This document shows, piece by piece, positions 813-23,313 of a DNA stretch of 38,851 bases. Position 1 is the stretch's first letter. Each line of letters starts with the position of its first letter. Origin of the DNA: Myxococcaceae bacterium (GTDB taxonomy: Bacteria > Myxococcota > Myxococcia > Myxococcales > Myxococcaceae); the NCBI GenBank assembly GCA_019694575.1, contig JAIBBR010000038.1:1-38851 (forward strand). Direction: 5' to 3'. The position numbers were made by a program, and so were the translations under genes. The notes below the pieces were generated by a model, which saw nothing but the letters and a program-made list of their open reading frames with translations, had not been told where the DNA came from and searched no databases.

Positions 813-2525
813 TCAAAGCTCGGCACCCATGCCCACAGTGCCCATCAATGCCGGGCTGCGCGCTTCGCTCGACGCTGAACCGCCAATGGGCAAACGAAAG
901 AAGCCCGAAGCGCGCAGCTGCAGCCAGCGCCAGGGGTGAACGTCGAGGCCGGCAGTGGCGCCCACTTCATTTTCCCAGCCTCCAGCCAGGGCGCGTTGAA
1001 ACCACGCTCCGCGCGCAGTGACGTTGACGGCGTGCCCCGGCCGCCATTGCAGCTGCCCGTACGCGGTGCGGCCCCACAGCCACCCGGGCTCCTCTTGGTA
1101 CCCGAGCGCCGCCCACAACCGGCCACCCAGCAAGGTGCGAAACGCCAGCTCGGAGCCCACGTACGCTTGCAGCAGGTTGGGCGCGAATTCTTTCGCCAGG
1201 CCGCCGAAAAACCGCAGCGACGTCAATGAAGAAAGCACCACGCTGCTCCATGCTGACGTGTGTACCGAACGGGTGAGGGGAATGACCGCGCCTTCAGGCA
1301 GCGCTTCGACGGTGGTGCTGCCGCGGTAGCGGCCCGATATTCCGAAGCTCAGGTCAGAAGTGGCGTGCAGTGCAATGTCGGCCACCGCGTTGTCGAAGCC
1401 GACGCCGCTCTCGGCGGCACCGTTGCCCAAAGCTGAAAGGTCCAGCTGGGTAAGCACGCTGAGGTGTGACGCCCACCACAGCCCCAGCGCGGCACTGACT
1501 TCGAAGCGAGAACCCACCACGGGCCGCACTGTCCACCCGGCGCGCCCGCGCGGTTGAAACCAAACACCACGCGTGCCTTCACCGTTGGTAAAAGTGCCAA
1601 ACCCATAGGCGCCCACCGCCCAAGACGAGAGCGTGGGCAGCAAGGTGCTGGCATCAGGTAACAGCCCGGCGTACCCACCGGCTTCGAAGCGGCCTTCGCG
1701 GTCGCGCCACCCCACTTGCGCTCCGTCAACGGCTTGCAAGCCGGGCACTGCATACAACCGCACTCGGCCGACGCGGGCCACGAGAGGGGCTTGGGCGGGC
1801 TGCCAACGCACGCTCAGCTCGCGCACGAAGAGCTGTGGTGAGCCTTTGAGCGGCGAGCGAAATTCAACGGGTCTGCGCTCGTACACCCACACCGCCACGT
1901 CTGCGCTGACAGAAAGCCCGTTCCACACTGGCAACTCGAGCAGCGCGGCGTCGAGCTGCTGCACCTGAAAAGGGCCCGAGGCCGAAGCGGTGGCGGCGAA
2001 CGTGGTGTGTTGGGCCCACACCCGCGCGTAAGGCCGACGCGTGGTCAGCGCTGATTCTTCTTCCCCGTCGAAGTCGATGAGAACCTGGGGCGTGGCGGTG
2101 GCTGTTTGCCACCGGCGCTCGAGCTCGCCCTCATTGGGCAACGCGGGTTGAACCGTGGGCAGCGCCACTGCTTTGCGCTCGAGCGTGAAACGGTCTCCCA
2201 CTTTGGCCGTGGGCCCCTGGCACGACGCGGAGTGCTCGTTCACCGTGTCGACGGTGCACGTGCCGGTTTTTCGACCCAACCGCGACAACACGAGTGCTTG
2301 GCCTTTTTTGAGCCCGTCGCTGGCTCCGCGGTTGATGAAGGCCAGTTCTTGGGTGCGATAGAGCACTTGGGCGGGTTCGAGCGCCGCGACCGACGTGGGG
2401 GCCTTTGCCGACTTGGTTAAGCCCGCACCGCGAAGTGCAGGTTTCTTTTGTCTTGCTGGGCGCGCTTCAACCGAAAAGGCCCACCCCACGAGTGCCAGGC
2501 TGACGAGGGCGGCCGTGCGTCTCAT
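813..2525 (-). CDS. Putative outer-membrane beta-barrel of the cytochrome operon (570 aa)
   Basis: The start at 2525 (MRRTAALVSLALVGWAFSV) overlaps the stop of the 10-haem cytochrome gene by 4 nt (ATGA) and gives a clean signal peptide with cleavage near VEA/R at residue 21. The longer frame back to 2771 is Arg/His/Pro-rich shadow of the upstream gene. After the leader, about residues 50-120 form a small beta domain resembling FlgT-C/SH3-like modules, with two Cys that may form a disulfide. From about residue 140 the sequence alternates polar and hydrophobic residues with many Trp, Tyr and Gly, as in outer-membrane beta-barrels. The last residue is Leu, not the usual aromatic. Last in a four-gene operon after two multihaem cytochromes, it is a candidate for an MtrB/OmbB-like sheath. 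That role is inferred from context; I see no direct homology to MtrB. Confidence 0.7.
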   Translation of the reverse strand: MRRTAALVSLALVGWAFSVEARPARQKKPALRGAGLTKSAKAPTSVAALEPAQVLYRTQELAFINRGASDGLKKGQALVLSRLGRKTGTCTVDTVNEHSASCQGPTAKVGDRFTLERKAVALPTVQPALPNEGELERRWQTATATPQVLIDFDGEEESALTTRRPYARVWAQHTTFAATASASGPFQVQQLDAALLELPVWNGLSVSADVAVWVYERRPVEFRSPLKGSPQLFVRELSVRWQPAQAPLVARVGRVRLYAVPGLQAVDGAQVGWRDREGRFEAGGYAGLLPDASTLLPTLSSWAVGAYGFGTFTNGEGTRGVWFQPRGRAGWTVRPVVGSRFEVSAALGLWWASHLSVLTQLDLSALGNGAAESGVGFDNAVADIALHATSDLSFGISGRYRGSTTVEALPEGAVIPLTRSVHTSAWSSVVLSSLTSLRFFGGLAKEFAPNLLQAYVGSELAFRTLLGGRLWAALGYQEEPGWLWGRTAYGQLQWRPGHAVNVTARGAWFQRALAGGWENEVGATAGLDVHPWRWLQLRASGFFRLPIGGSASSEARSPALMGTVGMGAEL

Positions 2526-3403
2526 CGGCTGGCCCCGGTCAGCGGGTGGCATTCGTAGCAGCGGCGGTCTCCGCATTGGTAGCCCGCGACGCCTTGGTGC
2601 TGGCGGTCGGTGGGCGTGGCGCCTTGTGGCCCGGTGCATTGGTGCTGGTGACAGGCGGTGCAAGCGGCGGTGCGGGTGTCGCAGGTGCCCGCGGTGGTGA
2701 CTGTCGACAAACGGGTGTGGCAGTCGGCGCAGGCGACCGTGGCGTGGGGGCCTGCCGAAATGAAAAAGCACCTGTCATGGGCGGGAAAACGCGCCGGCCG
2801 AAAACGGTCAGCGGTGTGGCATTCGCGGCAGTTGTCGCTAAAGCCGAGCCGCAGGTGATCGACCGCGGTGCCCACCGTGCGCAGCAGCGCAGTCTGGTGG
2901 CACGCGACGCAGGCCACCGCGGGGCGGGCGAATGAGCGGTCGCGGGCCCCTGCATGGCACTCGTCACAGGGGAGCGCCGCGTGCCCTCCGAGCAGAGGAA
3001 AGTTGGTGCGTTGGTGGGCGTCGACGTTGAAGGTGTGGCTCTGCCACGATGTTTCGTCGTGGCACCCTTCGCAGCGCAGGCCCAACTGCGCCTGGTGCTC
3101 GTCACGGTGGCACCCTGCACAGGCTTGCGGCTGCGGTACTTTCAAGTCGAGCCCGTGGCAGGCTTTGCACGGCGCAGTGCGATGGCTTTCTTTCAGTAGA
3201 AAGCCAGTTCGGTCATGGTTGAACTTCACCACTGACCAGCTCTCGGTGACGTGGCACTTGGCGCACGCCGTATCGTCGCCCGCCGAATGCAGCCGCGGCT
3301 TGGGCACCAGGTTCGGCAGCCCAGGTATCGCTACCGCGGGCGGTGGCTTGGTAACGGGCGCGGCTCCCAGCGCACTGGCGAGCAAAAGAAAGCCCAAGCT
3401 CAT
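2522..3403 (-). CDS. Secreted decahaem cytochrome c (293 aa)
   Basis: Ten CXXCH haem-c motifs are readable (CAKCH, CKACH, CAGCH, CEGCH, CDECH, CVACH, CRECH, CADCH, CTACH, CYECH), about one per 29 residues, with many extra His available as distal ligands. The leader MSLGFLLLASALGAA suggests Sec export with cleavage near residue 15, placing the protein in the periplasm. Units of the type HxRTxFxLxxxHxxxPCxxCH match the repeat of the adjacent 20-haem protein, so the two share ancestry. Size and haem number resemble the MtrA class of periplasmic decahaem cytochromes that plug outer-membrane barrels, and the next gene downstream encodes a barrel. Start and stop overlap both neighbours by 4 nt. The call as a multihaem cytochrome is very secure; the MtrA-like role is inference. 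Confidence 0.9.
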   Translation of the reverse strand: MSLGFLLLASALGAAPVTKPPPAVAIPGLPNLVPKPRLHSAGDDTACAKCHVTESWSVVKFNHDRTGFLLKESHRTAPCKACHGLDLKVPQPQACAGCHRDEHQAQLGLRCEGCHDETSWQSHTFNVDAHQRTNFPLLGGHAALPCDECHAGARDRSFARPAVACVACHQTALLRTVGTAVDHLRLGFSDNCRECHTADRFRPARFPAHDRCFFISAGPHATVACADCHTRLSTVTTAGTCDTRTAACTACHQHQCTGPQGATPTDRQHQGVAGYQCGDRRCYECHPLTGASR

Positions 3404-5178
3404 GGCTCGAAGTCCTTGAACTCACCTCGGTGAAAATCAGAATGGCACCCTTCACATGTTTGGGGCACGCCGCGAAACCGTTGCACCGTCAGCCCGGGGC
3501 CCACGGCGACACGGGGGTGGCAGGCGTCGCAGGCCACCTTCGCGTGCTTGCCTTCTAAAAGGTACGTCGTGAAGGGTGGCTGGTGCACAAAGGCCGACGC
3601 GGGCTTGAATTCGGTGTTGCCATGGCAGCGTTGGCAGGGCGTCTTTTCGTCGGCGCTGTCGAATTGCCCGGCGTGCTCATCGGCGTGGCAGCCGGCACAG
3701 TTCAACGGCAATGGCTTGTAACGGGGCAGACCGCCTTTGCTGGCAGGGCCGTGGCAGTCGCCGCAGGCCACCGTTTGGTGCGCTCCCTCGAGGGGAAAAC
3801 GCGTTTTTTGATGATCAAAAGTCAGCGCATGAAAGCTGCTCACCTGGTGGCAGCTGGCGCATGCAGTGCCCGCTTTTGAAAACTGCCCTTTGTGCACATC
3901 TTGGTGACAGCTCTCGCATTGGGCGAGCGGTTTGGTGAAGTCGAAGACGGCGGTGCTGAAGAGCGGCAGACGGTTTTTCTTTTTCAGGGCCATGCGAATC
4001 GCCGCGGGCACTCGCGCAAGCAACCCCGGAGCAGGCGGGTGGCAGCTCGAGCAGGGTATTGTTTGGTGTGCGCCTTCGAGTGGGTAGCGGGTGCGTTGGT
4101 GCGCTTCCATCGAGAACTGCACCGGCAAGAAGCCTTCGACCATGTGACAGGTGGCGCAATCGGGGGCTTTGTTTTTAGCGGTACCTGAAAGCTGCCCTTG
4201 GTGCGCGTCGGCGTGGCAGTCAGTGCATTGCGAGAAGGCCATGTTTTTGAAGCGAGCGGGCTGACCGGGAAAAGGGCCGTGGCATGAGCGGCAAGGCGCG
4301 TCGAGGTGCGCTCCTTTCAATGGGTAGCGCGTCTGCTCGTGAAAGGCGCGCTCTTGCATGGTGCCGCGAATGTTTTTCCACCCTTGGGTGGTGTGGCAGC
4401 TGGTGCAACGGGCACCGAATTTTCCATCATGTGCGTCGTCGTGGCAGTCGGTGCAGCCCCGGTGCTCGATGGGCGCGAACTTCATGAAGGTTTCTGACAC
4501 CGGCGCGGGAAACGCAGGCATCGGCCCGTTGTCTTTCACTGACGGGTGGCATTTGGCGCAGGCCACTTTTTGGTGTTTTCCCTCGAGAGGGTAATGGGTT
4601 TCGGCGTGGTTGAAGTGAGGGGTTTGCTTCCAAGCGGCTTCGCTGTGGCAGGTGGTGCATTCGCCTTCGGTTTGGCCGCGGTGCTCGTCGAAGTGACAGG
4701 CCGTGCATTCGGTGCTGAGCCCGAGAAATGTTTGCCGCGCCGGTTTTTTCTCGAGCAGCGCTTTGATGACGTTGGCAAACACCAAGCGGGGTTCGTGGCA
4801 CTTTTCGCACGCCAAGGGGCTGTGTTTACCCTGCAGTGCCCAGCCGGTTTGTCGGTGATCAAACCCTTTTTTGCCGCCTTTGCCCCAGTCGATGAGCGGG
4901 AAGTCGCGGCCTTGGTGCTCTTTGTGGCAGTTCTCGCACTCGCGCAGCTCGCTCTTTATTTTGCCGTGAAAGCCCACGCCCTTGGCGATGCGCGGTTTCA
5001 ATTCGGTGTGGCAGTCGAGACAGGTTTCTTGTGAAAGCTGTTGCCCGGCAGGGTGGCACTGGGTGCAGTTAGAAAGCCCTTCGAGCGCGTGGTGGGCTTG
5101 CGCCAATTCGCCGGGTGAAAAAATGTCAGCGGCGGCGGTCGACGCCCACAGCGCAATGAGCAACGCGGCCAACCTCAT
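3400..5178 (-). CDS. Secreted 20-haem cytochrome c (592 aa)
   Basis: Twenty CXXCH motifs can be counted, with no haem-free domain. The leader MRLAALLIALWASTAAA is a clear signal peptide cleaved near residue 17. The protein is built from tandem modules: CxxCHxDxHxGxF, then a CxxCH before an aromatic segment, then H-x2-TRYPLEGAH-x4-C-x2-CH. The YPLxGxH element appears about six times with clear conservation, as in YPLEGKH, YPLKGAH, YPLEGAH, FPLEGAH and LLEGKH. Such arrays normally make an elongated haem wire. It lies between the membrane oxidoreductase gene and the decahaem gene with 4-nt overlaps on both sides, which suggests it carries electrons across the periplasm from the inner-membrane enzyme towards the outer membrane. 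No lipobox is seen, so a soluble periplasmic location is expected. Confidence 0.92.
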   Translation of the reverse strand: MRLAALLIALWASTAAADIFSPGELAQAHHALEGLSNCTQCHPAGQQLSQETCLDCHTELKPRIAKGVGFHGKIKSELRECENCHKEHQGRDFPLIDWGKGGKKGFDHRQTGWALQGKHSPLACEKCHEPRLVFANVIKALLEKKPARQTFLGLSTECTACHFDEHRGQTEGECTTCHSEAAWKQTPHFNHAETHYPLEGKHQKVACAKCHPSVKDNGPMPAFPAPVSETFMKFAPIEHRGCTDCHDDAHDGKFGARCTSCHTTQGWKNIRGTMQERAFHEQTRYPLKGAHLDAPCRSCHGPFPGQPARFKNMAFSQCTDCHADAHQGQLSGTAKNKAPDCATCHMVEGFLPVQFSMEAHQRTRYPLEGAHQTIPCSSCHPPAPGLLARVPAAIRMALKKKNRLPLFSTAVFDFTKPLAQCESCHQDVHKGQFSKAGTACASCHQVSSFHALTFDHQKTRFPLEGAHQTVACGDCHGPASKGGLPRYKPLPLNCAGCHADEHAGQFDSADEKTPCQRCHGNTEFKPASAFVHQPPFTTYLLEGKHAKVACDACHPRVAVGPGLTVQRFRGVPQTCEGCHSDFHRGEFKDFEP

Positions 5179-7418
5179 TTAAAAACCCAGAAATAGCCAA
5201 GGTAGAGCGAAACCACGATGTGCGCGGCAATCATGAACACCAGCGTCACCGCCAGCACCACGTGCAGAATGCGCCAGCTGCTCATCAACTGCCGCAGGCT
5301 TTGGTAAAAACCGACTTGGTATCGCAGCGTGCGCAGCCGGCGGTACCCTTGGGCAAAATCGTCGAAGGTTTCGGGCGAAGAAAAGAGCGGCTGCAAGCCG
5401 CGCAGCACTTTTCGGGTGTGGGCCGTTTCATAAGGCAGGCGCGTCAGAAAGCGAAAGAAGGAGCCAGAAGGAGGCGGCCCCGTCACCACTTCGAGCGCGG
5501 CTTCGACTGCTTTGGCGTCGGTGACACCCCTTACCAGCGTCTTGATGCGTTCGCGCAGCCGTTCCCAGCGGACTTGCAGCTCGGCCAGCTGCGACTCGCG
5601 CCCTTCGCGACTGGGCACCAAGCCGAAGATGAAACGGCCCACCAGCCCTGTCAGCACCACCACGGCCACCGACACCGACGTGGTCGTCGCCAGCACGTTG
5701 TTCGACTTGAAAGTGGCATGAAACGCAATCGCGACCGGGCTCATGATGCCGACGAATTGGTGAAAGGTCAGCCAGCCTCGAATGGGCCCCGAGCCTTTGA
5801 AAATTTCGAAGCGCTTGCGCACCGAATAGAGAAAATTCGAGAGCATGAAAAGCGTGGCGACGATGCCCACGCCGTGGCCCCAGGTGCCAGCGGGGCGCAA
5901 CAACTTGTGCATTGGGTGTTTGAGCCGTTCAGCCGCCGCCAGACCGTAATAGTCGTAACCCGCCGCCGCCAGCACCGCGAAAATCAACGCGCCCAAGGCA
6001 AACAGGGCGAGCACCAAGCGGCGGTGGCGTTGTTTTTCGGCGACGGCTTTGGCGCTGCCGCGGCGTGGTTTGGGCACCGTGCCCGACGGGCTTTGCCCTT
6101 CGTCGAGCGCCTGGCCGAAGAGCCGCCGCAAGTTCACTCTGACTGACGTGAGAAATTCAGTCGGCAACTCACCGCCCGCGCAGACGATGACAAAGTCGTT
6201 GCGCAGTTTGCCCGTGCGCCCGTCAGATGCCTCGAGGTGCACCGCGTCGGCCGTAATTTTTTTAGTCTGAGTCGCCATCAGCGCGCGCACCCGCTTGGTC
6301 TCGACGAGCTGTTTGAAGGCGCGTTTGTTGGCGTCGCGGCAGCGGCCGAACGCGGCGTTACGGTAGCTCAGCGTGACTTCGGCGTCGCTGTCGTTGGCGA
6401 GCGCAATGGCCGCTTCGAGCGCCGAATCACCGCCCCCCACCACCAGCACCCGGCTGCCGTCGTATTGCTGTGGGTCAATCAACCGGTATGACACTTTGGG
6501 TAAGTCTTCACCGGGCACGCCCAGTTTTCGGGGGCTGCCGCGCCGCCCAATGGCCAACACCACTTTGCGCGCCTGCACCGGCCCCTGGCTGGTCTGCACC
6601 ACGAAGGCCCCGTCTTGCCCGGCGATGCCCGTCACCTTCACCCCTGCTTCCACCGTGACGCCTGACTTTTCCAGCGCCCGTTGCCAGGTGGCGAGCAGCT
6701 CTTCTTTCGAAATCAGCTTTTTGCCGAACTTTCCCAAGAAGGGCAGGTCGACCCGTTCGGTCATCACCACCTTTTGGCGCGGGTAGTGGGCAATGGTGCC
6801 GCCGACAGAGTCTTGCTCGAGCACGCGAAAGGTGATGCCCGCCTTCTGCAAGCCCAGCGCGGTGGCCAAGCCCGCTGGCCCGGCGCCTATCACCGCGACG
6901 TCGACGCCCGCGGCTTCATCGCTTGCCGACACACTTTGGGCCAGGTGCCGAGCCACCTGCAGCCCTTGGGTGATGGCGTTTTTGATGAGCCCCATGCCGG
7001 CCAATTCACCCACGATGTGCAACCCTCGGCGGCTGGTTTCGAAGTGCTCGTCGATTTCAGGCAAGTCGACGCCGCGCTCACTGGTGCCGAACACCAAGCG
7101 AATGGCATCGACCGGGCACTCGAGCGCGCACTTGCCGTGGCCAATGCAGGCCGAAGGGTTGATGAGCGCCGCTTTGCCGTCGACCACACCCAAAATGTCT
7201 CCCTCAGGGCAAGCGCTCAGGCACGACAAGCTGCCGATGCAGCGGTCAGGGTCGATGACGGGGTGCAACGTGGGCGGTATGTGCCGCTGCTCGGCGATGG
7301 CGACTTCGAGTTTGTCGCTGTCGCTTTCTTCGCGTGCCCGGCGCGCGCGCACCATCGTGCGCATGCCCCAGGCCGACAGCACGAAGAGAACGGCGAGCCC
7401 TACCCATTCCCAATGCAT
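5175..7418 (-). CDS. Membrane Fe-S/FAD/NAD(P)H oxidoreductase fused to a cytochrome b-like domain (747 aa)
   Basis: An N-terminal membrane anchor (about 5-20) is followed by two ferredoxin-like motifs, C60-x5-C66-x3-C70-P and C91-x5-C97-x3-C101-P, in which the usual second Cys is Ser63 or His94. A TrxR-like flavoprotein domain follows, with the first Rossmann motif VIGAGPAG (176-183) and the second VVGGGDSA (326-333) for NAD(P)H. After a basic linker, about five hydrophobic segments begin at residue 466. His553/His567 and His719/His733 show the 14-residue spacing of two stacked b-haems in a four-helix bundle, as in cytochrome b and ferric reductases. The protein probably oxidises NAD(P)H or ferredoxin and passes electrons through the membrane to the 20-haem cytochrome whose gene overlaps it by 4 nt. 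The ATG at 7418 has a weak AAGG upstream. First gene of the operon; donor and direction of flow are not shown by sequence. Confidence 0.85.
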   Translation of the reverse strand: MHWEWVGLAVLFVLSAWGMRTMVRARRAREESDSDKLEVAIAEQRHIPPTLHPVIDPDRCIGSLSCLSACPEGDILGVVDGKAALINPSACIGHGKCALECPVDAIRLVFGTSERGVDLPEIDEHFETSRRGLHIVGELAGMGLIKNAITQGLQVARHLAQSVSASDEAAGVDVAVIGAGPAGLATALGLQKAGITFRVLEQDSVGGTIAHYPRQKVVMTERVDLPFLGKFGKKLISKEELLATWQRALEKSGVTVEAGVKVTGIAGQDGAFVVQTSQGPVQARKVVLAIGRRGSPRKLGVPGEDLPKVSYRLIDPQQYDGSRVLVVGGGDSALEAAIALANDSDAEVTLSYRNAAFGRCRDANKRAFKQLVETKRVRALMATQTKKITADAVHLEASDGRTGKLRNDFVIVCAGGELPTEFLTSVRVNLRRLFGQALDEGQSPSGTVPKPRRGSAKAVAEKQRHRRLVLALFALGALIFAVLAAAGYDYYGLAAAERLKHPMHKLLRPAGTWGHGVGIVATLFMLSNFLYSVRKRFEIFKGSGPIRGWLTFHQFVGIMSPVAIAFHATFKSNNVLATTTSVSVAVVVLTGLVGRFIFGLVPSREGRESQLAELQVRWERLRERIKTLVRGVTDAKAVEAALEVVTGPPPSGSFFRFLTRLPYETAHTRKVLRGLQPLFSSPETFDDFAQGYRRLRTLRYQVGFYQSLRQLMSSWRILHVVLAVTLVFMIAAHIVVSLYLGYFWVFK

Positions 7419-7485
7419 GAATGAACCTTGTCAGTTCGTGCGCGCAAAAGTACCGCGAAGTGTACGCGCAAGGGTACGCCCGGGT

Positions 7486-7504
7486 AGGCGCAAAATTTGC
7501 GCCT
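7486..7504. promoter_or_regulatory. 19-bp palindrome in the divergent cytochrome promoter region
   Basis: AGGCGCAAAATTTGCGCCT is a perfect palindrome with 9-nt arms around a single A. It lies 68 nt upstream of the oxidoreductase start and 238 nt upstream of the 29-haem gene. GTACGC-type direct repeats sit just left of it (7462-7488). A symmetrical site between two divergent operons suggests an operator for a dimeric regulator, though it could also form a hairpin in RNA. No regulator gene is visible nearby. Confidence 0.4.
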
Positions 7505-7544
7505 TCGCTTTGGGAGCCGCGCCTCTGTTAACCTGCGGCCGAGC

Positions 7545-7710
7545 TAGCCCGCATATGTCACCGGTCTCTCGTAGCGAGACTGACAGGCTGTCGGCAGATT
7601 CGTGGAGGCGCACAGCGAAGGCGCACTTGTCGGTGCGCCTCAGCGAGCACGCCGCGAAGGTGCCACAGACCGTCAGTCGCAGCAGTGAGACCGGTGACAT
7701 ATGCGGGCTA
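7545..7710. mobile_element. MITE-like element with perfect 24-bp inverted ends and TA borders
   Basis: Positions 7545-7568 and 7687-7710 are perfect inverted copies, and each begins or ends with TA, as expected if a 22-bp terminal repeat is flanked by a TA target duplication (IS630/Tc1-mariner style). The interior continues as an imperfect palindrome (matching ACTGAC and CTGT-GGCA blocks) and closes around a short GGCGCAC/GTGCGCC stem near 7619-7637. It has no coding capacity. It fills about half of the 323-nt gap between the divergent cytochrome transcripts, so it may alter promoter spacing or add a strong RNA hairpin to a transcript. I saw no second copy in the window. Confidence 0.6.
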
Positions 7711-7741
7711 AAGGGCCTTTTCGGGGTAGGGAGCTCAGCGC

Positions 7742-10700
7742 ATGAAACCACCCAATGCGTTGGCCGGCAGGGCCTGTCTGGGAGTGCTGTGGGCCTGCGG
7801 GTTGACAGCGTGTGTGTCGTCAGTGCCAGGAGGCCCTGACGGCAAAGGGCTGACACCTGACCGGCACACGTTTTTTCCCATTGTCGCGGGAGCCACCCAC
7901 GCCTTCGGTGGGCAAACCGTCGACGGTCAGGTGACGTGCGAGTCGTGCCACCCACCTGCCGCGGCGTCTTTCAAAGACATCAGCTGCACGGGCTGCCACA
8001 CGCACGCACAACCGGCCACCGACTTGGTGCATGTCGCCGTGGCTGATTACCGCTACGACAGCCGGGCGTGTGTCGACTGCCACCCTGACTCGGCGAAGCG
8101 GCCCTTTTCGCACCCGGCCGCGACGGTGGGTAAGTGCGCCGTCTGCCATGACGTGCAACAGCCCTTCGCGGCGTTGCCAGTGGCGAACTTCACCCACCCC
8201 TCGATGGCCGGAGCCGACTGTGGCGCCTGCCATTCGACGGCGGGTTGGAAAGGAGGCGAGGGAGGCACGCGCGATGGGTTTGACCCGCGCAAGACGCTCT
8301 CGCTCGAGGTGCTTTTGCCCCGTTACCAAGGCACTTCGATTCTCTCTTTCACGCCGCAGACCCAAGCGCTGCCCATGCCAATGCGGCACCAGTCTTTGCA
8401 GTTGCCGCAGGCGGCGCTGGGTGCGTGCTCCAACTGTCACGTCGATGCGGCGGCAGGGGTTTATTACCCGGGCCGTTTTCACGATTCGATTGAGAACTTG
8501 GTGTTGGCGCAACCCACGCTTTGTTCTGACTGTCACGGCCTCACCGAGCCTACCGGTTTCGTTGGCCCGTTGGCGGTGACGCCCGCCCGCAGCCCGTCGT
8601 CGGGTGAAATGAAACACGACGCGGTGGCATGGGCGGCGAACGTGCCCACGTCGCAGCGGCTGGTCACCCAAGAATGCGGCACTTGTCACCGGGTGAGCGC
8701 CGCCGCGGGCTGGGCCGCGGGCCGCGATGGCACGGCTCCGGCGAACTACCACGCTGCGCTTGCCGCCGCTTCAGCCAGCCCGCCTTCGAGCTGTGTCGAC
8801 TGCCACGCCAATTCACGGCCCACGCAATTGCTGACCAACGCCACGGCGGCATTGCCCATAAATGTCGTGTTTGACCACCAACATCTCGACGCCTTGGGCG
8901 ACTGCCAAAATTGCCACGCCGCTTCGGGGCCCGGTTTCACCACCTTCAGAGGCGGTCAGTTTCACCTCGCCGGTGCGTCGTCACCTGCCACCTGTTTGCC
9001 GTGCCACGACGCCGAACGCCCCACCAGCACCGCGGGCTGGCAAAATAGCAGCTTCACCCAGTCGCCTTTCGACTACGTCACCAACGCCGCCAACATTTCG
9101 CACGGAGCCGGCCAAGACTGTGCGGTGTGCCACGCCGGGCCAGGCACGGGGCAGTGGGGCAGCACCCAAAATTGGCAGGGAGGCCACTTTGGCCACGGGC
9201 CTAACTCGCTGGCCGCCAAGTCATGCGTCAACTGCCACAGCACGCAGCGGCCTGACCTCTTGCCCGGAGCCACCGCGGCGCAAATGGCCACTTTGCTGGG
9301 GTTTGACCATGCCCTCAACGGCCAAGGCGACTGTTACGGCTGTCACCAGGCCACGGTGAGCGCCGGCCAATACGTCAACCTCGTCAACCCTTCGACGGGC
9401 ATGTTGCCCGGAGGGCACTGGGCGGGCGGCCAGGCGTACCCCGGTTCGACACTCGTCAGCTCGACGACGCGCTTCATCACCGTGCAAGAAGGGCTGCTCA
9501 ACCGCTCGGGCCCGTTGAACCTCGTCACCGGCATGAGCAACCGCACCAGCACATATTACAACGCGATGTTGCACACCGCGGCCGGAGTGCCTGCGGCGGT
9601 CAACGCCGGGCCCACGGGCATGCCCGATGAAACCAAGTGCTGGCACTGCCACACCCATACCAACGGCACGGTGACGTCGTTCGTCGACGGTGTCTTTCAT
9701 GCGTCACTGAGCAATTACCGCGCGACTCCCGGTGGCGCGGTGAGCCCCTTGCCCCAACCCACGTCAGGGTGCATTGACTGTCATGACCCGCAAATGCGGC
9801 CGCAGGGCATTGTGCGGTTGATGGGCTCGAATATGAAGTCGATGGACCACGACGCCTTCTTCAGCGCCGCGGTGACCATTGGGGGCAAGACTGTCTCGAA
9901 TGCCAACGGGCTGGACTGCGTGACGTGCCACCGCGCGGCCGCCGGTTCTACCGACTGGGCCAACGGCGAATTTCACCCCAACGTGGGCGCCGCCCAACCC
10001 CAAGACTGCACGGTGTGCCATTACCCGTTAATGGCCGACGCTGCCCAAGCCGACGTCACGCAAGGCACGACGTACGCCATGCGCCACCGTTCGGGCCAAA
10101 TCACAGTGCAAAAATGTGACAGTTGTCATGCCGGAGCCCTGGCGCGAGCGGTGACACGACCGGTGACGGCGGCGTTGTGGCGGCCGGGCAGTTACCACGG
10201 CTCGTTGCTCACTCAACCCGGGGCTTGTCTCGACTGTCACGCGGCTTCTGAGCCAGTGGTGGCCACCCGCAGCACCGTCAGCTACCCGTTGGCCGAAGGC
10301 GGCACTGCGAGCAACACCCGGCAGTGGATGTCGCATCTCTCTTCGCTGGTGGCGGGCCGTGACTGCGTGGTGTGCCACCAGGCCGACGCCCAACGTTCAG
10401 GCAGCGCGTGGAACGCGGGCACGCCCTTGCACGCCAAAGTGACGAACGCCACGGGTTGCAAGGAATGCCACGGTCTCAATAACGGCATGGGCAGTGTTGC
10501 AGGCACCAACAACAACTTGCCCGCGGGGCTGGTGTCTTCGGCCACGGTGTCTACCATTGCCGGTGTCTCGGGCAGCGGCGTGCCGGCGGGCACGAAAGAT
10601 CTCATCAGCCACGCCGATTTGAACGTGGCCAACCACGACTGCAATTTTTGTCATACGCAAATAGGCCCTTCGAGCACCGCGGGAGTCATGGGCCAAGAGT

Positions 10701-11521
10701 GGGCCCAAGCGCGCTTTCACGCCAATTTCAGCAGCGCTGCCAACCCGTTGCTCATCAACAACACCTCGGCCCGGTGCAGCAACTGCCACCTCAACGTCAA
10801 ACCGGCCGCAGGCTACAGCCCACAAAACCACTCGGCTTTCACCAACGCTTCGGGCAGCCAAGACTGTGCGTCGTGCCATTCTTTTCCAGGCACGGGCAGC
10901 GCGAGCGCTCCGAATTGGAAAGGCGCGGCAGGAGTGCCTCCCTTCATTTCAGTGGGAGGCTTCACCATCGCGGCGCCTCCTGCCGCTGCGGGCACCGTGC
11001 AAGGCGGTATTGCCGACTTGCCGCACCCCACCGTGGCCGCGGGTACCGACTGTACGACTTGCCATGCTTCGGCCTCGGGTGGTCGTCGGGCTGTGGGGTA
11101 TGATCACGCTTCGAACTTGATCAACGCCAACTGCCGCGCCTGCCACGAAGCAGGCAGTGACTTGGTCGGCACCGCGTGGAACCCCACGGCTTCAGGGGCG
11201 AGCACCCTGCAGGCCAGCTGTGGAGAAGGCAGCGGCAGCATTCGTGACCGGGCGGGTGATACCCGGGCCATTGGTTTGGGTTCGCTCGCTTGTACCGACA
11301 AGGCCACCAGCAAGACGTGCGGCTCGGGAAATTGCGTCGCCAACCACTTTTACCCAGCCGATTGCCATGAGTGTCACAACAAGCCGTCGGGTGTGACCGT
11401 CACCAAGACCGGAGCGAGCTACGTGTCGGGTTGGCAGTTTCCCCACAGCCAGGGAAACATGCAGCAAACCACGTGCTGCATGTGCCACAACGCGCGCAGC
11501 AACGGCTCGTGCCGGCCGTAA
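7742..11521 (+). CDS. 29-haem lipoprotein cytochrome c (1259 aa), probable surface terminal reductase
   Basis: Twenty-nine CXXCH motifs are spread over the whole protein, from CESCH near residue 65 to CCMCH close to the C-terminus, on average one per 43 residues. The N-terminus has a lipoprotein leader with lipobox LTAC and lipid Cys24; residue +2 is Val, not Asp, which under the E. coli rule favours the outer membrane. Modules are longer and richer in Gly, Ala, Asn and Thr than in the two periplasmic cytochromes, as in outer-membrane cytochromes such as OmcB or MtrC, though no specific family is recognised. The C-terminal 120 residues carry extra Cys outside haem motifs (TLQASCGEGS, CGSGNC) that may form disulfides. 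A TAGGGAG motif precedes the ATG. It is divergent from the oxidoreductase operon and is proposed as its outermost partner. Confidence 0.9.
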   Translation: MKPPNALAGRACLGVLWACGLTACVSSVPGGPDGKGLTPDRHTFFPIVAGATHAFGGQTVDGQVTCESCHPPAAASFKDISCTGCHTHAQPATDLVHVAVADYRYDSRACVDCHPDSAKRPFSHPAATVGKCAVCHDVQQPFAALPVANFTHPSMAGADCGACHSTAGWKGGEGGTRDGFDPRKTLSLEVLLPRYQGTSILSFTPQTQALPMPMRHQSLQLPQAALGACSNCHVDAAAGVYYPGRFHDSIENLVLAQPTLCSDCHGLTEPTGFVGPLAVTPARSPSSGEMKHDAVAWAANVPTSQRLVTQECGTCHRVSAAAGWAAGRDGTAPANYHAALAAASASPPSSCVDCHANSRPTQLLTNATAALPINVVFDHQHLDALGDCQNCHAASGPGFTTFRGGQFHLAGASSPATCLPCHDAERPTSTAGWQNSSFTQSPFDYVTNAANISHGAGQDCAVCHAGPGTGQWGSTQNWQGGHFGHGPNSLAAKSCVNCHSTQRPDLLPGATAAQMATLLGFDHALNGQGDCYGCHQATVSAGQYVNLVNPSTGMLPGGHWAGGQAYPGSTLVSSTTRFITVQEGLLNRSGPLNLVTGMSNRTSTYYNAMLHTAAGVPAAVNAGPTGMPDETKCWHCHTHTNGTVTSFVDGVFHASLSNYRATPGGAVSPLPQPTSGCIDCHDPQMRPQGIVRLMGSNMKSMDHDAFFSAAVTIGGKTVSNANGLDCVTCHRAAAGSTDWANGEFHPNVGAAQPQDCTVCHYPLMADAAQADVTQGTTYAMRHRSGQITVQKCDSCHAGALARAVTRPVTAALWRPGSYHGSLLTQPGACLDCHAASEPVVATRSTVSYPLAEGGTASNTRQWMSHLSSLVAGRDCVVCHQADAQRSGSAWNAGTPLHAKVTNATGCKECHGLNNGMGSVAGTNNNLPAGLVSSATVSTIAGVSGSGVPAGTKDLISHADLNVANHDCNFCHTQIGPSSTAGVMGQEWAQARFHANFSSAANPLLINNTSARCSNCHLNVKPAAGYSPQNHSAFTNASGSQDCASCHSFPGTGSASAPNWKGAAGVPPFISVGGFTIAAPPAAAGTVQGGIADLPHPTVAAGTDCTTCHASASGGRRAVGYDHASNLINANCRACHEAGSDLVGTAWNPTASGASTLQASCGEGSGSIRDRAGDTRAIGLGSLACTDKATSKTCGSGNCVANHFYPADCHECHNKPSGVTVTKTGASYVSGWQFPHSQGNMQQTTCCMCHNARSNGSCRP

Positions 11522-11636: not shown

Positions 11637-13799
11637 ATGGCAATCATTCCTTCTGCTGGTCATGGCTCTGCTTCACATGTTCCCGGTACTCACCCCGCCA
11701 CGTCTCACGCGCCGACGGCAACGTCTGGTGCAGCCGGCCATGCCGGGCGAGCCGATTGGGCGGCGACAGCCAAGCCTGTTGATATCGCCAGTGCGCTCGC
11801 CATCACGCCCCAAGACTACGCCGAAGGGCAGCAGGTGCTGGTCAATTACGCCAACGTGCAGGGCCGAAGCATTGGTTCAGGCCAGCGAGCCCCCAACGGC
11901 TCGTGGAACCGCGGCGTGTTGCAGGTAAAACAAGACCGGCTCGGCGCGGGCTCGTTGTTCACCGTGTACTCAGGCCACAATGCCACGCAAGACTCGTTCA
12001 GAGCGCTGACGCTGCGCATGCGCGCGACGCCCAACGGCGGCTACACGCAAGACCGAGACCTCATCTCTTTTGGGGGTGGCCAGCCCGTGCAGACCAAGCA
12101 CGGCCCAGGCAACAATCAGTACGAGAGCGTGCTCAAGTATTACGTCAGCGACCAAGAGCTTTCGAATGCCATTTCGAACGTCATGCCTGGCACGTCGGTC
12201 GATGCAGTGCTCAAGAGCGCCCAGTTCGCGGTGCACGGCAACTTCGCCAGTGGCCACAACTGGGGCAACTTTGATCGCCATGGCATTTTTCAGATGAAGC
12301 TCGCCTCGGGCCCGGCGCCCACGCCCGAACCGCGCATCGTGGTGGGCTTGCCTCCCAACCAGGCAAAGGTCGAGCTCGATATCTCGGTGCCCATCAGTGA
12401 CACGCGCAAGGCGAAGTTCACCGCGCTCGACACCAAAGAAGCGGCCTACGTCAGCCATCTCGAGGCGGAAGCGAAAGTACGTGTGCCGCTCACCCTCTTT
12501 CTCGAGCTGAACCGCCGCGTTCAAGACCTGGCGAACAACCCGGTGCCGGCAGAAATGCAGAAAATTTTCGCCAACGAGGCCGCCGATTGGCAGGTCGAGC
12601 GGGTCAAAAAGTACGACCCCAAAGGGGTAGAAATGACGCCCGACAAACATGGGCTGCTGCCGGTAAACCCCTTTCACGACATCTACCTCGACAACGCCAA
12701 CCGCGACCTGGCGAAAAACTTCATCGCCTTGCGCATGCGTTCCGTCGCCGGAGAAAAGAACAACTTCACCCAGTTCAATTACAAGCCGGGCCCGGGCATT
12801 CGCGACAACCAGACCAATGTGGTGCGCCGTCTTGAGACGGAAATCATCGCCAAGAAAGAAGTGTCTCGTAACCCCAGTTTGATGTTGCCGTTTTTTAGCG
12901 ACGGCAACGAAGCGCTGAACCCTCACAACTTGGGCAGCCAATTCGTCATGAGCACCACCGGGCGGCCACTGCCGGCCCAAGTTCTCGGTCAGCCTGCTGC
13001 CGACATCACCCAGTTTTCGGGCATTGGCTCAAACCGCCGCTACAAGTTCGAGGTCACCAACAAAAAGACGCTGGTGGCTTTTGAAGCGTCGCTCGACCTC
13101 AACACCACGTTGGCCACCGACGCCCGCGGTATGCCGGTACGGGTTGATGCCAACGGCGTGGTTGACCCCAACGGCCAGTACTACGCCATCTCGACCTTTG
13201 GCCAAGCCGAGCCCGAAGCCAACCACATGGCGGGCGTGGTGGGCGGAGCCAATACGCCACACGCGCCAGCTCCAGCAGCGGCGCCCCCTCTGCCCGCGGC
13301 GCCAGCCAATGGCGCAGCCACGGCGGGCAACACGTCATTGGGTCCTCCGGCGACTTACATTCATTCTCTCAACGATTTGAACAGCCCGGTTTTCAAGACC
13401 GACCCTGGCTACGTGCAGTTCGACAAGGTGATGCCCGCCTTTCAGCAGTGGCTCTTCGGAGGTGGAAAGATTGGCGACCGGCTGGGTGCGATGCCGACTG
13501 AACAGAAGAACGCCATTGGTCAGCGCCTCGCGGGCACGGTGCCGATGACGGCGCAAGAAAAGCAGCTCTATGCACAAGAGCTCGAAGCCACGCGTCAGTT
13601 TCGGCTGAATGCGTCGGCGATCTTGAAGCCCGTGGTCGACGCAGCAGAACAAGAAATTGCCCAGGCCCAACATGTTTTCGGTGGTGTAGGGCCTCGCTAC
13701 GAAGAAGCGGTGGCGCAGGCGCGAGAGAAAGTGTGGAAGGCGTTCTCAGACTTGAACCCGCTCGACTATGTCGACTTGGCGACGTTGCCTCCGCCTTGA
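11637..13799 (+). CDS. Unrecognised large protein (720 aa), accessory block
   Basis: A purine-rich AAGAAGGAAGT directly precedes the ATG at 11637. There is no signal peptide or membrane helix. The first 40 residues are low-complexity (Gly, Ser, His, Thr, Ala, Pro), followed by a long mixed alpha/beta region. A Pro/Ala-rich linker at about residues 540-570 leads to a helical, Gln/Glu/Ala-rich C-terminal part. The last 20 or so codons (KAFSDLNPLDYVDLATL) lie in a 51-bp sequence that is repeated perfectly at 15176-15226. I do not recognise the family; segments such as SFGGGQPVQTKHGPG and GHNWGNFDRHG could be searched. It heads the accessory block that also holds a catalase-fold protein, and might be a cytoplasmic structural or substrate-binding protein, but no function is claimed. 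Confidence 0.75.
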   Translation: MAIIPSAGHGSASHVPGTHPATSHAPTATSGAAGHAGRADWAATAKPVDIASALAITPQDYAEGQQVLVNYANVQGRSIGSGQRAPNGSWNRGVLQVKQDRLGAGSLFTVYSGHNATQDSFRALTLRMRATPNGGYTQDRDLISFGGGQPVQTKHGPGNNQYESVLKYYVSDQELSNAISNVMPGTSVDAVLKSAQFAVHGNFASGHNWGNFDRHGIFQMKLASGPAPTPEPRIVVGLPPNQAKVELDISVPISDTRKAKFTALDTKEAAYVSHLEAEAKVRVPLTLFLELNRRVQDLANNPVPAEMQKIFANEAADWQVERVKKYDPKGVEMTPDKHGLLPVNPFHDIYLDNANRDLAKNFIALRMRSVAGEKNNFTQFNYKPGPGIRDNQTNVVRRLETEIIAKKEVSRNPSLMLPFFSDGNEALNPHNLGSQFVMSTTGRPLPAQVLGQPAADITQFSGIGSNRRYKFEVTNKKTLVAFEASLDLNTTLATDARGMPVRVDANGVVDPNGQYYAISTFGQAEPEANHMAGVVGGANTPHAPAPAAAPPLPAAPANGAATAGNTSLGPPATYIHSLNDLNSPVFKTDPGYVQFDKVMPAFQQWLFGGGKIGDRLGAMPTEQKNAIGQRLAGTVPMTAQEKQLYAQELEATRQFRLNASAILKPVVDAAEQEIAQAQHVFGGVGPRYEEAVAQAREKVWKAFSDLNPLDYVDLATLPPP
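13738..13788. repeat. 51-bp direct repeat, copy 1 (3' end of the 720-aa gene)
   Basis: This sequence is identical over 51 bp to 15176-15226 and differs immediately outside on both sides. Here it is coding and in frame at the end of the 720-aa gene. The two copies are 1438 bp apart in the same orientation and enclose the 343-aa gene and a broken acetyltransferase. No transposase or integrase lies between them. Confidence 0.9.
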
Positions 13800-19273: not shown

Positions 19274-21838
19274 TCAATTATTTACGTGGGGCCATCGACC
19301 GCGCCCACGATAGACGAGCGCTAGCAACACCAGGGCAAAGGGTGTTGCACCTGCCGTGGAGCAGTCGCAGCCCACGCGGTACGGGCTGGCAGGCTGTGTC
19401 GGTGGGGCCTCTGGAGCGCACAGGGTGGTGGCCTCGTCGCAACACGCGCCCACCACGCAGCGACCGGTTGAACACTCGGTGTCGCTCGTGCACGGGCCTA
19501 CCACTGCGTTGCTGAAACGAAGGTTGCTCATCTGGCTGGGAATGCCGTTTACGACGGCATAAGCCCAATATTGCCCGACGGGCAGGTTTGCTGGCACCAG
19601 CACCGTTGCCGTGCTCGAAGTCCAGTCGGTGCTCGTCGCAGGCAACATCAAACCGTTGTCCTGCCGAAGGAGCATTATCACTGGCAGATTGGCGGGCGCC
19701 GCAAGGTAGTGGCCGCCAGAGCCTTCAGAAATGCCCGTCAGGCGTGCGCCGGTCACCGGTATTTTCGCGCCTGGGGTGGCGGGTGGCAGCGCATCGAGCA
19801 GCGGGGCCCATGTGGGCTTTGGGCCCAAGCCTTCGTCGAACAGCACCGCGGTGTTATCGCCACCGGCCAAGAGGGCAAGGCCTGTGGGGAGCAGCACGGC
19901 ACGGTGAAAGGCTTGTGCGCTGGGTAACGCGCCCGTGCCCGTAAACGTGCCCGCCACCGGGTCATAAATTTCGGCACTCAATTCGGCTCCGCTGTTGGCC
20001 GGGTCTTCGCCTCCGGCAAACAGTACTCGGGCGCTTCGCAGCAGCGTCGCGGTGTGAAAGCGACGCTTTTTCGTCATGTTTCCGGCGGGGGTGACGCTGT
20101 CGTTGCTGGGGTCGAAGAGCACCACCGAAGCGAGGCTGTTGAGGCCGTCGTCGCCTCCTGAAATAAGCACCCGGCCATCGGCGAGCAGCGTCGTGGTGTG
20201 GCCGCGAGAGGGAAATTTGCCGGTCACTACGGTCCAGTTGCCGGTGCTCGGTGCATAGAGCGCGGCGCGGCCGCTGCCGACGGCCAGCACGCGGCCGTCT
20301 TGAAGCAACGTCGCGGTACCCGCACCGATAGGGTCTGGCAACGAACCGGTGGCCGCCCATTGGGCGGTGGTGGGGTCGAAAATTTCGCAGCGGGTTTCGT
20401 CTGCGGTCGGCCCATTGCCCCCGACAACCAGCACTTTTCCGTTCGCGAGCAGCACCGCGCTGTGTTTCGAGCGGCGACTTTTCAGCTCTGCGACGGGGTT
20501 CCACGTTTGGTGCGCGGAGTCGAAGACTTCGCAACTGGCAAGCGGAGCCCCGGTCGAATCTTTGCCTCCGGTGACCAGCACTTTGCCATTGGACAACACG
20601 GTTGCCGTGTGCCCTGAGCGGCCCGTCAGCAAACGGCGGGTGCTGGTCCACGAAGACGACGAGGGCTCGTAAACAAAAGCCGAGTCAAAGGCGGTGTCTC
20701 CCCCCGTCATCAGTGCTTTGGCGTTGGGCAAGAGTGAAAGCGTGGCGTCACCCCGGGGCGCATTGGGCGGAGCGGGCGCGTCAGTGAATGCGCTCTTGAA
20801 TGAATCGAACAGCTCGGTGCTCGCCAGGTTACCCGTGGTGTTGAAGCCACCCAAAAGCAAAACCCGGCCGGTTGGCAACATGGCCGCTGTGTGATCAAGG
20901 CGCGCCATTTTCATCACCCCCGCGTCGGACCACGCGTTGGTCGTCGAGTCGTAGACCTCGAGCGAAGCGAGGCCCACGCTGCCGTTTTCTCCGCCCGCGA
21001 CGAGCAGCTGGCCATTGGTCAACAGCGTTGCCGTGTGGCTGCGGTGAATGGTCGCCATGGGCCCAGTGTTCGACCACCCCCCGTCGACGGGGTCGTAAAG
21101 TTGTGGAAATGAGCCGAGCGTGGCCACCAAGATTTTGCCGTTGGGCAGCAAGGTTGACGATTGCTGGTCTGTTCCCGCGGTGGTGACTCCTGCGTCGACC
21201 CAGACATCAGCGACGGGGTCATAAAGCTCGGCAACCCCGTCGTGGACCAGCACCTTTCCATTCACGACGGTTGCGGCAAAGTCTGACCGCGGCCTCGACA
21301 TGGGTTTCGCCGTTGCCCAGGTTCCACTGTCTGGGTTGAACAGTTGCACGTCGTTGTACCGGGGAGCGAATGCAGGAGCTGCTCCACCAGCCAAGAAAAG
21401 TCGCCCGTCATCTAAAACGCTCGCGACGGCCAAAATGCGGTTGTTCAACGCCGGTGCAGCCACGAGCGCCCATGTTTCAGTCACCGGGTCAAAGAGCATT
21501 GAATTGGCGTTCAAGGTGCTCGACTGAACAAGCACCTTGCCATTGCGCAGGGTGCTCGCCAGCTGGTTCAAAGGAAAAGGCGCGGGCGCGGTGGGCTTCC
21601 AGCGGTTGCTAAAGGGCTCGTAAATGTCGACCGCTGTTTCTCCCGCCGAGCCGATGAGAACCCTGCCGTCGGGTAACAGGGCCACCGTCGCGTTAGAACG
21701 CGGTGACGGCATGGGCGAGGCTGTTGCTGTCAACGGGTTGTAAGCAATGCCGCTGATGCCTTTTGGGTCGGGTGGCTCGATGCAGTCTGCCATCAACGCC
21801 GAGCACAAAAACGCAAGCAGCCAGGCCGTTCGCGGCAT
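19274..21838 (-). CDS. Kelch-repeat surface protein with MYXO-CTERM-like tail (854 aa)
   Basis: A signal sequence (MPRTAWLLAFLCSALMADC) is followed by many kelch-type repeats of about 45-55 residues, with the consensus HTATLLxxGxVLVxGG followed by a strand and xYDPxxxxW. They fill most of the protein and should fold as beta-propellers. Near the C-terminus, CTSDTECSTGRCVVGACCD is the Cys-rich motif common in myxobacterial surface proteins. The end has a CDCS motif, a hydrophobic stretch (PFALVLLALVY) and a basic RGRGR, as in MYXO-CTERM sorting signals, but with five extra residues after it. An Asp before Cys19 makes a lipobox doubtful. It lies 44 nt downstream of the copper monooxygenase gene on the same strand and may be co-expressed. 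Confidence 0.85.
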   Translation of the reverse strand: MPRTAWLLAFLCSALMADCIEPPDPKGISGIAYNPLTATASPMPSPRSNATVALLPDGRVLIGSAGETAVDIYEPFSNRWKPTAPAPFPLNQLASTLRNGKVLVQSSTLNANSMLFDPVTETWALVAAPALNNRILAVASVLDDGRLFLAGGAAPAFAPRYNDVQLFNPDSGTWATAKPMSRPRSDFAATVVNGKVLVHDGVAELYDPVADVWVDAGVTTAGTDQQSSTLLPNGKILVATLGSFPQLYDPVDGGWSNTGPMATIHRSHTATLLTNGQLLVAGGENGSVGLASLEVYDSTTNAWSDAGVMKMARLDHTAAMLPTGRVLLLGGFNTTGNLASTELFDSFKSAFTDAPAPPNAPRGDATLSLLPNAKALMTGGDTAFDSAFVYEPSSSSWTSTRRLLTGRSGHTATVLSNGKVLVTGGKDSTGAPLASCEVFDSAHQTWNPVAELKSRRSKHSAVLLANGKVLVVGGNGPTADETRCEIFDPTTAQWAATGSLPDPIGAGTATLLQDGRVLAVGSGRAALYAPSTGNWTVVTGKFPSRGHTTTLLADGRVLISGGDDGLNSLASVVLFDPSNDSVTPAGNMTKKRRFHTATLLRSARVLFAGGEDPANSGAELSAEIYDPVAGTFTGTGALPSAQAFHRAVLLPTGLALLAGGDNTAVLFDEGLGPKPTWAPLLDALPPATPGAKIPVTGARLTGISEGSGGHYLAAPANLPVIMLLRQDNGLMLPATSTDWTSSTATVLVPANLPVGQYWAYAVVNGIPSQMSNLRFSNAVVGPCTSDTECSTGRCVVGACCDEATTLCAPEAPPTQPASPYRVGCDCSTAGATPFALVLLALVYRGRGRWPHVNN

Positions 21839-23130: not shown

Positions 23131-23313
23131 GAAGACTCCGGTTTGCCCTTTATCGGCCCAACGTCTTGGTGGGGCGCAGCATAGCAGGCGTTTGGGGGTG
23201 CTCGACGGTCGCCAAAGGAAACGGCAGTTTTTCAAGGTAGGCAGGGGTACGCACGCAAGATAAGGCCATTTCAAAAATGCGCCTTGGCGCGTGAATGGTA
23301 GAAGGCGGCCACG

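Follow-up and report, generated by a model that had tools for sequence, protein, structure and literature searches.

The subject of this analysis is a five-gene locus at positions 813–11521 of contig JAIBBR010000038.1 (assembly GCA_019694575.1) from a Myxococcaceae bacterium, a candidate conduit for moving electrons across the whole cell envelope. The window, meaning the entire stretch of DNA analyzed, is a complete contig of 38,851 bases from a genome of 5.28 Mb, and the closest named relatives of this genome are in the Myxococcaceae. Four genes, oxr, c20, c10, and barrel, follow one another on the minus strand, and c29 is divergent on the plus strand. A first-pass annotation had reported 59 haem motifs here together with an oxidoreductase with b-haem, Fe-S, and flavin parts and a porin-like gene, and a six-frame count and Pfam searches bear this out. 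Three open reading frames (ORFs) carry two or more CXXCH motifs (10, 20, and 29, for a total of 59), and the count found no further ORF of this kind in the window.

5175–7418, minus strand: oxr, fused inner-membrane oxidoreductase; 747 amino acids (aa); Pfam Fer4_10, Pyr_redox_3, and Pyr_redox_2
7095–7265, minus strand: oxr ferredoxin-like domain (residues 52–108); motifs CxxSxxCxxxCP and CxxHxxCxxxCP
6099–6911, minus strand: oxr FAD/NAD(P) domain (residues 170–440), YpdA/FNR-like by Pfam and structural matches; no CXXC
5178–6056, minus strand: oxr five-helix b-haem domain (residues 455–747); W549-H553-H567, W715-H719-H733, and TGxxG in helix 4
3400–5178, minus strand: c20, putative 20-haem periplasmic cytochrome; 592 aa; 20 CXXCH; predicted signal peptide (by inspection)
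2522–3403, minus strand: c10, decahaem c-type cytochrome; 293 aa; 10 CXXCH; predicted signal peptide; Pfam Cytochrome_C7
813–2525, minus strand: barrel, predicted porin; 570 aa; ATG in an ATGA overlap; AlphaFold2 model and Protein Data Bank (PDB) fold matches
7742–11521, plus strand: c29, 29-haem lipoprotein; 1259 aa; 29 CXXCH; lipobox; predicted outer-membrane/surface cytochrome

The four minus-strand genes are joined, as had been noted, by three exact 4-nt overlaps (oxr/c20 at 5175–5178, c20/c10 at 3400–3403, and c10/barrel at 2522–2525). A fixed stoichiometry, which the first-pass annotation read from these overlaps, does not follow; they are suggestive of translational coupling only. The barrel gene starts at the ATG at 2525 within the ATGA, giving 570 aa, and the mechanical ORF of 813–2771, with its GTG at 2771, begins too early. 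No additional component of the conduit was found among the remaining genes of the window. The genome has cytochrome c maturation genes (Cytochrom_C_asm was found), and a search of the genome for ResB of System II maturation found none.

The proteins of the locus

By hydropathy, oxr begins with an N-terminal transmembrane anchor followed by positive charges, continues through an Fe-S dicluster domain and an FAD/NAD(P) domain, and ends in five helices. Hydropathy and the positive-inside rule would place the Fe-S/FAD part in the cytosol and one histidine pair near each side of the membrane. The helices carry the motif WX3HX13H twice (W549xxxH553-x13-H567 and W715xxxH719-x13-H733). Both ferredoxin motifs (CxxSxxCxxxCP and CxxHxxCxxxCP) are without one usual cysteine; in the second, CIGHGxCxxxCP, the histidine is kept in 96/99 homologues, and the counterpart position of the first usually holds Cys or Ser. 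The clusters may be unusually ligated or of the 3Fe-4S type, and the cofactor occupancy of the protein as a whole is one that we infer. Its flavin domain folds nearest to YpdA/Bdr and the thioredoxin reductase (TrxR)-type ferredoxin–NADP+ reductases (Z 14–17, with a high rmsd). A b-haem protein was not among the PDB matches listed for oxr, which is no evidence of absence given that one domain fills the list. Homologues of oxr in Myxococcota are 47–62% identical.

The cytochromes are densely packed with haem motifs. One haem occurs per 29.6 aa in c20, a protein with Pfam Cytochrome_C7/Cytochrom_c3_2 matches for which composition alone predicts about 0.2 CXXCH by chance in 592 aa, against the 20 present. 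Histidines beyond the CXXCH motifs number 12 in c10, 26 in c20, and 37 in c29, enough for bis-His ligation. Homologues of c20 that adjoin the oxidoreductase are 40–58% identical, and at several loci (L192, L062/L197, L065, and L199) c20 and c10 are fused as a single protein of 30 haems in which c10 forms the C-terminal part, which argues that the two pass electrons to each other. The cytochrome that enters the barrel is probably c10. For c29, the lipobox LTAC is kept in most homologues, which are 45–57% identical and lie divergent from or downstream of the operon. Its match to Pfam Mtrc-MtrF_II-IV_dom is strong (90.7 bits against a cut-off of 30), and we regard it as a conserved predicted lipoprotein, with a predicted location at the cell surface. 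The c20 and c29 sequences gave no match when compared with solved structures.

The last minus-strand gene is predicted with good model confidence to encode an outer-membrane beta-barrel, in line with the putative barrel of the first-pass annotation. A signal peptide (by inspection) is followed by a small N-terminal beta domain at about residues 52–103 and a barrel of about 21 strands at residues 168–547. The AlphaFold2 model has a mean pLDDT of 79, with the barrel part mostly >85, and all the PDB matches listed are outer-membrane proteins or barrels (Z 14–17). MtrB was not among the matches listed, but one domain also fills this list, so its absence is not evidence. No Pfam family matched at E 0.05, hence no MtrB/PioB match. 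Homologues at the same locus position in other Myxococcota are 22–36% identical.

The oxidoreductase was found in 16/96 genomes of the window's family and in 47/195 Myxococcota genomes from 31/90 genera, a few of them with the split form. Co-occurrence of the gene set in other genomes had been proposed as a check on the reading of the locus, and 32/33 untruncated loci with the fused oxidoreductase keep the 20- and 10-haem cytochromes (or one 30-haem fusion) and the barrel by profile reading, where the tally counts distinct loci and leaves out those cut by a contig end. The sole exception is L196, in which the barrel was not detected. In two closed genomes (5,029,329 and 5,013,479 bases), the gene order is barrel, 9-haem, 10-haem, and 20-haem cytochromes, and oxr. 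The extracellular cytochrome varies among loci, with 27–29 haems, 44 haems, or 7–11 haems (the last in some Myxococcus relatives and in Anaeromyxobacter). The dissimilatory Fe(III) reducer Anaeromyxobacter is among the carriers of the oxidoreductase, A. oryzae included. One further candidate, L039, was set aside as a distant TrxR-like match that lacks the b-haem signature and has no multihaem genes nearby.

Relation to PCC3 and a probable flavoprotein partner

The closest described system is candidate porin-cytochrome complex 3 (PCC3), in which a porin, extracellular and periplasmic many-haem cytochromes, and an inner-membrane protein are encoded in a cluster (He et al. 2017, PMC5566968). The inner-membrane protein as described there has about 300 aa and five helices, with SGxxG in transmembrane helix 4 (TM4) and two WX3HX13H motifs in TM3 and TM5, and the median haem numbers are 21 for the periplasmic and 34 for the extracellular cytochrome. 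The C-terminal half of oxr has the same five helices by hydropathy and the same two motifs, at W549 and W715. The 20-haem c20, with its signal peptide, stands in the position of the 21-haem periplasmic cytochrome, and c29, with 29 haems, a conserved lipobox, and a predicted surface location, may be the counterpart of the large multihaem cytochrome; an outer-membrane beta-barrel porin is likewise predicted in the cluster.

The locus also differs from PCC3, which was published in Proteobacteria. The membrane protein forms one fusion protein with an Fe-S flavoprotein of the NAD(P)H type, there is an extra 10-haem cytochrome, and the barrel is weakly similar to the PCC3 porins and has another N-terminal domain. 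In TM4, oxr has TGLVG rather than SGxxG; TGxxG is found in the fused Myxococcota proteins and mostly SGxxG in the split ones. The change to TGxxG is conservative, yet the locus is a fused variant of PCC3 and not a strict member.

With a profile built on the oxr membrane domain, a PCC3-like protein is found beside multihaem genes, most with 15–57 haems, in Gamma- and Alphaproteobacteria, Nitrospinota, KSB1, Omnitrophota, and others. Both WX3HX13H motifs are present in 85/89 membrane-domain homologues, and three of the four others are broken or cut frames. The downstream gene in these loci encodes a protein of 630–890 aa with a mostly aromatic C-terminal residue, like outer-membrane porins. The motif GR..G..DG..G.P occurs in 16/18 of the Gammaproteobacterial porins, 21/21 aligned Myxococcota barrels, and 6/204 background ORFs, figures to be read knowing that a stricter first version fitted 3/21 Myxococcota barrels and was relaxed once, so that the motif was tuned after the data were seen. 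The locus belongs with the candidate conduits of the PCC3 kind as a fused variant, the unfused kind being present in many phyla. The first-pass annotation had proposed a complete conduit that might be a distinct, undescribed system in Myxococcota. A conduit running from inner membrane to surface is supported by the predicted barrel, the 32/33 loci, and the predicted lipoprotein c29; novelty and restriction to Myxococcota are not supported in that form, given the PCC3 signature in the cytochrome b half and the wide occurrence of the unfused kind.

Outside Myxococcota, PCC3-like loci have the Fe-S/FAD half of oxr as a gene of its own, near that for the membrane protein. The first of these loci were found by means of the flavoprotein half, and the search was repeated with the membrane protein alone in 185 Gammaproteobacteria. 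This gave 23 genomes with 27 loci, 24 of which have the split flavoprotein within ~9 kb of the membrane protein. The flavoprotein is present in 23/23 genomes that have the PCC3 membrane protein compared with 2/162 that lack it, one of those two being a fragment (Fisher p = 2e-27, a value that overstates independence because the genomes are related). In a tree of the flavoprotein, the Myxococcota-type fusions form one supported group, and a second fusion is found in a planctomycete (L091) and an uncultured bacterium (L084). The supported branches force two or more changes, so that fusion occurred independently at least twice. Genes that co-occur and fuse repeatedly are, by the usual criteria, taken to be obligatory partners, and a flavoprotein that is this constant and repeatedly fused makes NAD(P)H the likely partner of PCC3 and outward flow the likely direction. 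The flavoprotein is absent from the four-gene descriptions of PCC3 found in the literature searched, a search with supplements, preprints, and subscription papers outside its scope. The PCC3 kind was already known as a candidate; the flavoprotein as its probable missing partner and the fused variant are the new part. The main point missed by the first-pass annotation is that PCC3 elsewhere is almost always accompanied by the NAD(P)H flavoprotein half and that the two have fused more than once.

Comparison with other known systems sharpens this placement. The logic of a porin, a decahaem cytochrome, and a surface cytochrome is that of MtrCAB, MtoAB, and PioAB, and the first-pass annotation had noted porin-cytochrome logic as in Mtr and Pcc. 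Membership in the Mtr family was rejected, as c10 scores 15 bits against the TIGR03508 (DmsE/MtrA) cut-off of 192 and the barrel has no Pfam match. Mtr relies on the quinol-oxidizing CymA. The Geobacter Pcc (OmbB–OmaB–OmcB) shares the porin-cytochrome logic and differs by its 8- and 12-haem cytochromes and by having no fused NAD(P)H oxidoreductase. Anaeromyxobacter has a pcc as well, described as two genes for a porin and one 12–14-haem cytochrome (Shi et al. 2014, PMC4245776) and likewise without a fused NAD(P)H oxidoreductase; its haem number marks it as distinct from the gene set of the present locus. For the oxidoreductase, the parallel is with the NADPH oxidase (NOX)/ferric reductase (FRD) proteins, in which NAD(P)H feeds FAD and FAD feeds two b haems whose ligands are HX13H pairs from two helices, and oxr may work in the same manner. 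FRD proteins differ in domain order, and oxr has a TrxR-type flavin domain and Fe-S clusters; the 25 Pfam families with a match at E 0.05 do not include PF01794, and membership was rejected. YpdA/Bdr and the TrxR-type ferredoxin–NADP+ reductases share the flavin-domain fold and the lack of CXXC, to which oxr adds the ferredoxin-like and membrane domains (TIGR04018 scores 158.8 bits against a cut-off of 339.9).

Proposed route and direction of electron transfer

The locus probably encodes a PCC3-type conduit that takes electrons across the envelope, with the module for their entry from the cytosol fused to it. NAD(P)H would reduce the FAD on the cytoplasmic side, and electrons would pass through the ferredoxin-like clusters to the cytoplasm-side b haem (H553/H719) and on to the periplasm-side b haem (H567/H733). 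The periplasm would be bridged by c20, the outer membrane crossed by c10 within the barrel, and delivery to extracellular acceptors, which could be Fe(III)/Mn(IV) minerals, humics, or partners, made by c29. The order from c20 through c10 and the barrel to c29, the surface location, the outward direction, and the acceptor are all inferred. Outward flow is downhill, along the membrane potential, and inward flow to NAD(P)+ would be uphill; the outward direction is likely the favored one. With one membrane protein joining NAD(P)H to the periplasm and no need for quinone in evidence, and with outward flow along the membrane potential, the system probably serves as an electron sink or redox balancer or in low-yield respiration.

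Several observations weigh against this account. The whole-protein model of oxr is modest (pLDDT 70.5, pTM 0.43) and does not fix the docking of the domains, and NADPH is only presumed over NADH as the donor. Profile–profile comparison (hhalign) of the Myxococcota barrel with the Gammaproteobacterial PCC3 porins gives weak similarity (E 0.002, probability 14%). Some Myxococcota loci have a small extracellular cytochrome (7–11 haems) or none nearby. PCC3 itself is known from sequence and expression data only, and its function is untested according to the authors of the Sideroxydans CL21 study. In what is published on it, Fe(II) oxidation is the role mostly considered for PCC3, and in CL21 one PCC3 inner-membrane gene (copy 2) was up when cells could oxidize iron.

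The CL21 result speaks for a conduit run inward, in which electrons drawn by the surface cytochrome from a partner, humics, Fe(II), or Mn(II) would be delivered to NAD(P)+ by the b-haem protein. PCC3 was first proposed in iron oxidizers (PMC5566968), and multihaem wires can be bidirectional, a point that the literature makes for Mto/Mtr. We consider the inward run unlikely: transfer from Fe(II) to NAD(P)+ would be uphill and against the membrane potential with no apparent coupling site in oxr, and the system is carried by an Fe(III) reducer, Anaeromyxobacter. In S. lithotrophicus ES-1, moreover, both PCC3 clusters are reported as down-regulated on Fe(II). In the proteomics reported for this strain, PCC3 proteins have a low to middling rank and the extracellular cytochrome Slit_1448 was not detected. 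About as improbable is a quinone-coupled conduit. The model of He et al. has PCC3 trade electrons with quinone (PMC5566968), in which case the b-haem domain would exchange with menaquinone and the flavoprotein would be a side branch, additional or regulatory. In its favor, quinone-active cytochromes b have HX13H pairs like the two seen here, but the same source describes such pairs as equally typical of NOX/ferric reductases, which are fed by flavin. The flavoprotein, moreover, is nearly always present and has fused with the membrane domain more than once, the pattern to be expected if the partnership is obligatory. The least probable by some way is that the system is not extracellular and acts as a periplasmic electron store (capacitor) or as a supply of reductant for some envelope reductase. 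The very large number of haems, a surface location that is no more than predicted, and the loci without a large extracellular cytochrome fit such a store, and against it a conserved predicted barrel adjoins the cytochromes and the large cytochrome has a conserved lipobox.

Tentatively, NAD(P)H-powered export through the envelope can be extended to PCC3-type conduits in many phyla, which could be quinone-independent electron exporters and not quinone-linked iron oxidases, although we put this at slightly under an even chance. If true, PCC3 would be a bacterial whole-envelope NAD(P)H oxidase revealed by the Myxococcota fusion. The fused conduit would also provide Anaeromyxobacter and other myxobacteria with a direct NAD(P)H route to external acceptors. 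PCC3 has been on the list of possible extracellular electron-transfer routes since 2017. Fusion and co-occurrence name the missing partner, and with the partner named, the inner-membrane connection of PCC3 becomes a question for a simple enzyme assay.

Related clusters and other features of the window

A second, paralogous cluster exists in Myxococcota (L041:3341–12452, L042:3107–12165, and L110). Its membrane protein is of the split form, its cytochromes carry 30 and 27 haems, and its flavoprotein is divergent. Genomes with this cluster also hold the fused system (G010 and G095). Candidate extracellular cytochromes with at least 44 and at least 69 haem motifs are found in related clusters at L051:12091–17235 and L167:385–5547, respectively.

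Within the window, the divergent intergenic region between oxr and c29 contains at 7546–7709 an element of ~162 bp with perfect 22-bp terminal inverted repeats (GCCCGCATATGTCACCGGTCTC). Across at least 13 contigs of the genome there are 23 such repeat ends, frequently in pairs separated by 140 bp, and a reversed control gave none. The element is MITE-like and may carry or interrupt promoters. Downstream of c29, a 720-aa protein encoded at 11637–13799 has a weak CYTH match alone. Farther along, a protein with copper type II monooxygenase domains (21886–23607) is encoded beside a Kelch-repeat protein (19277–21838).

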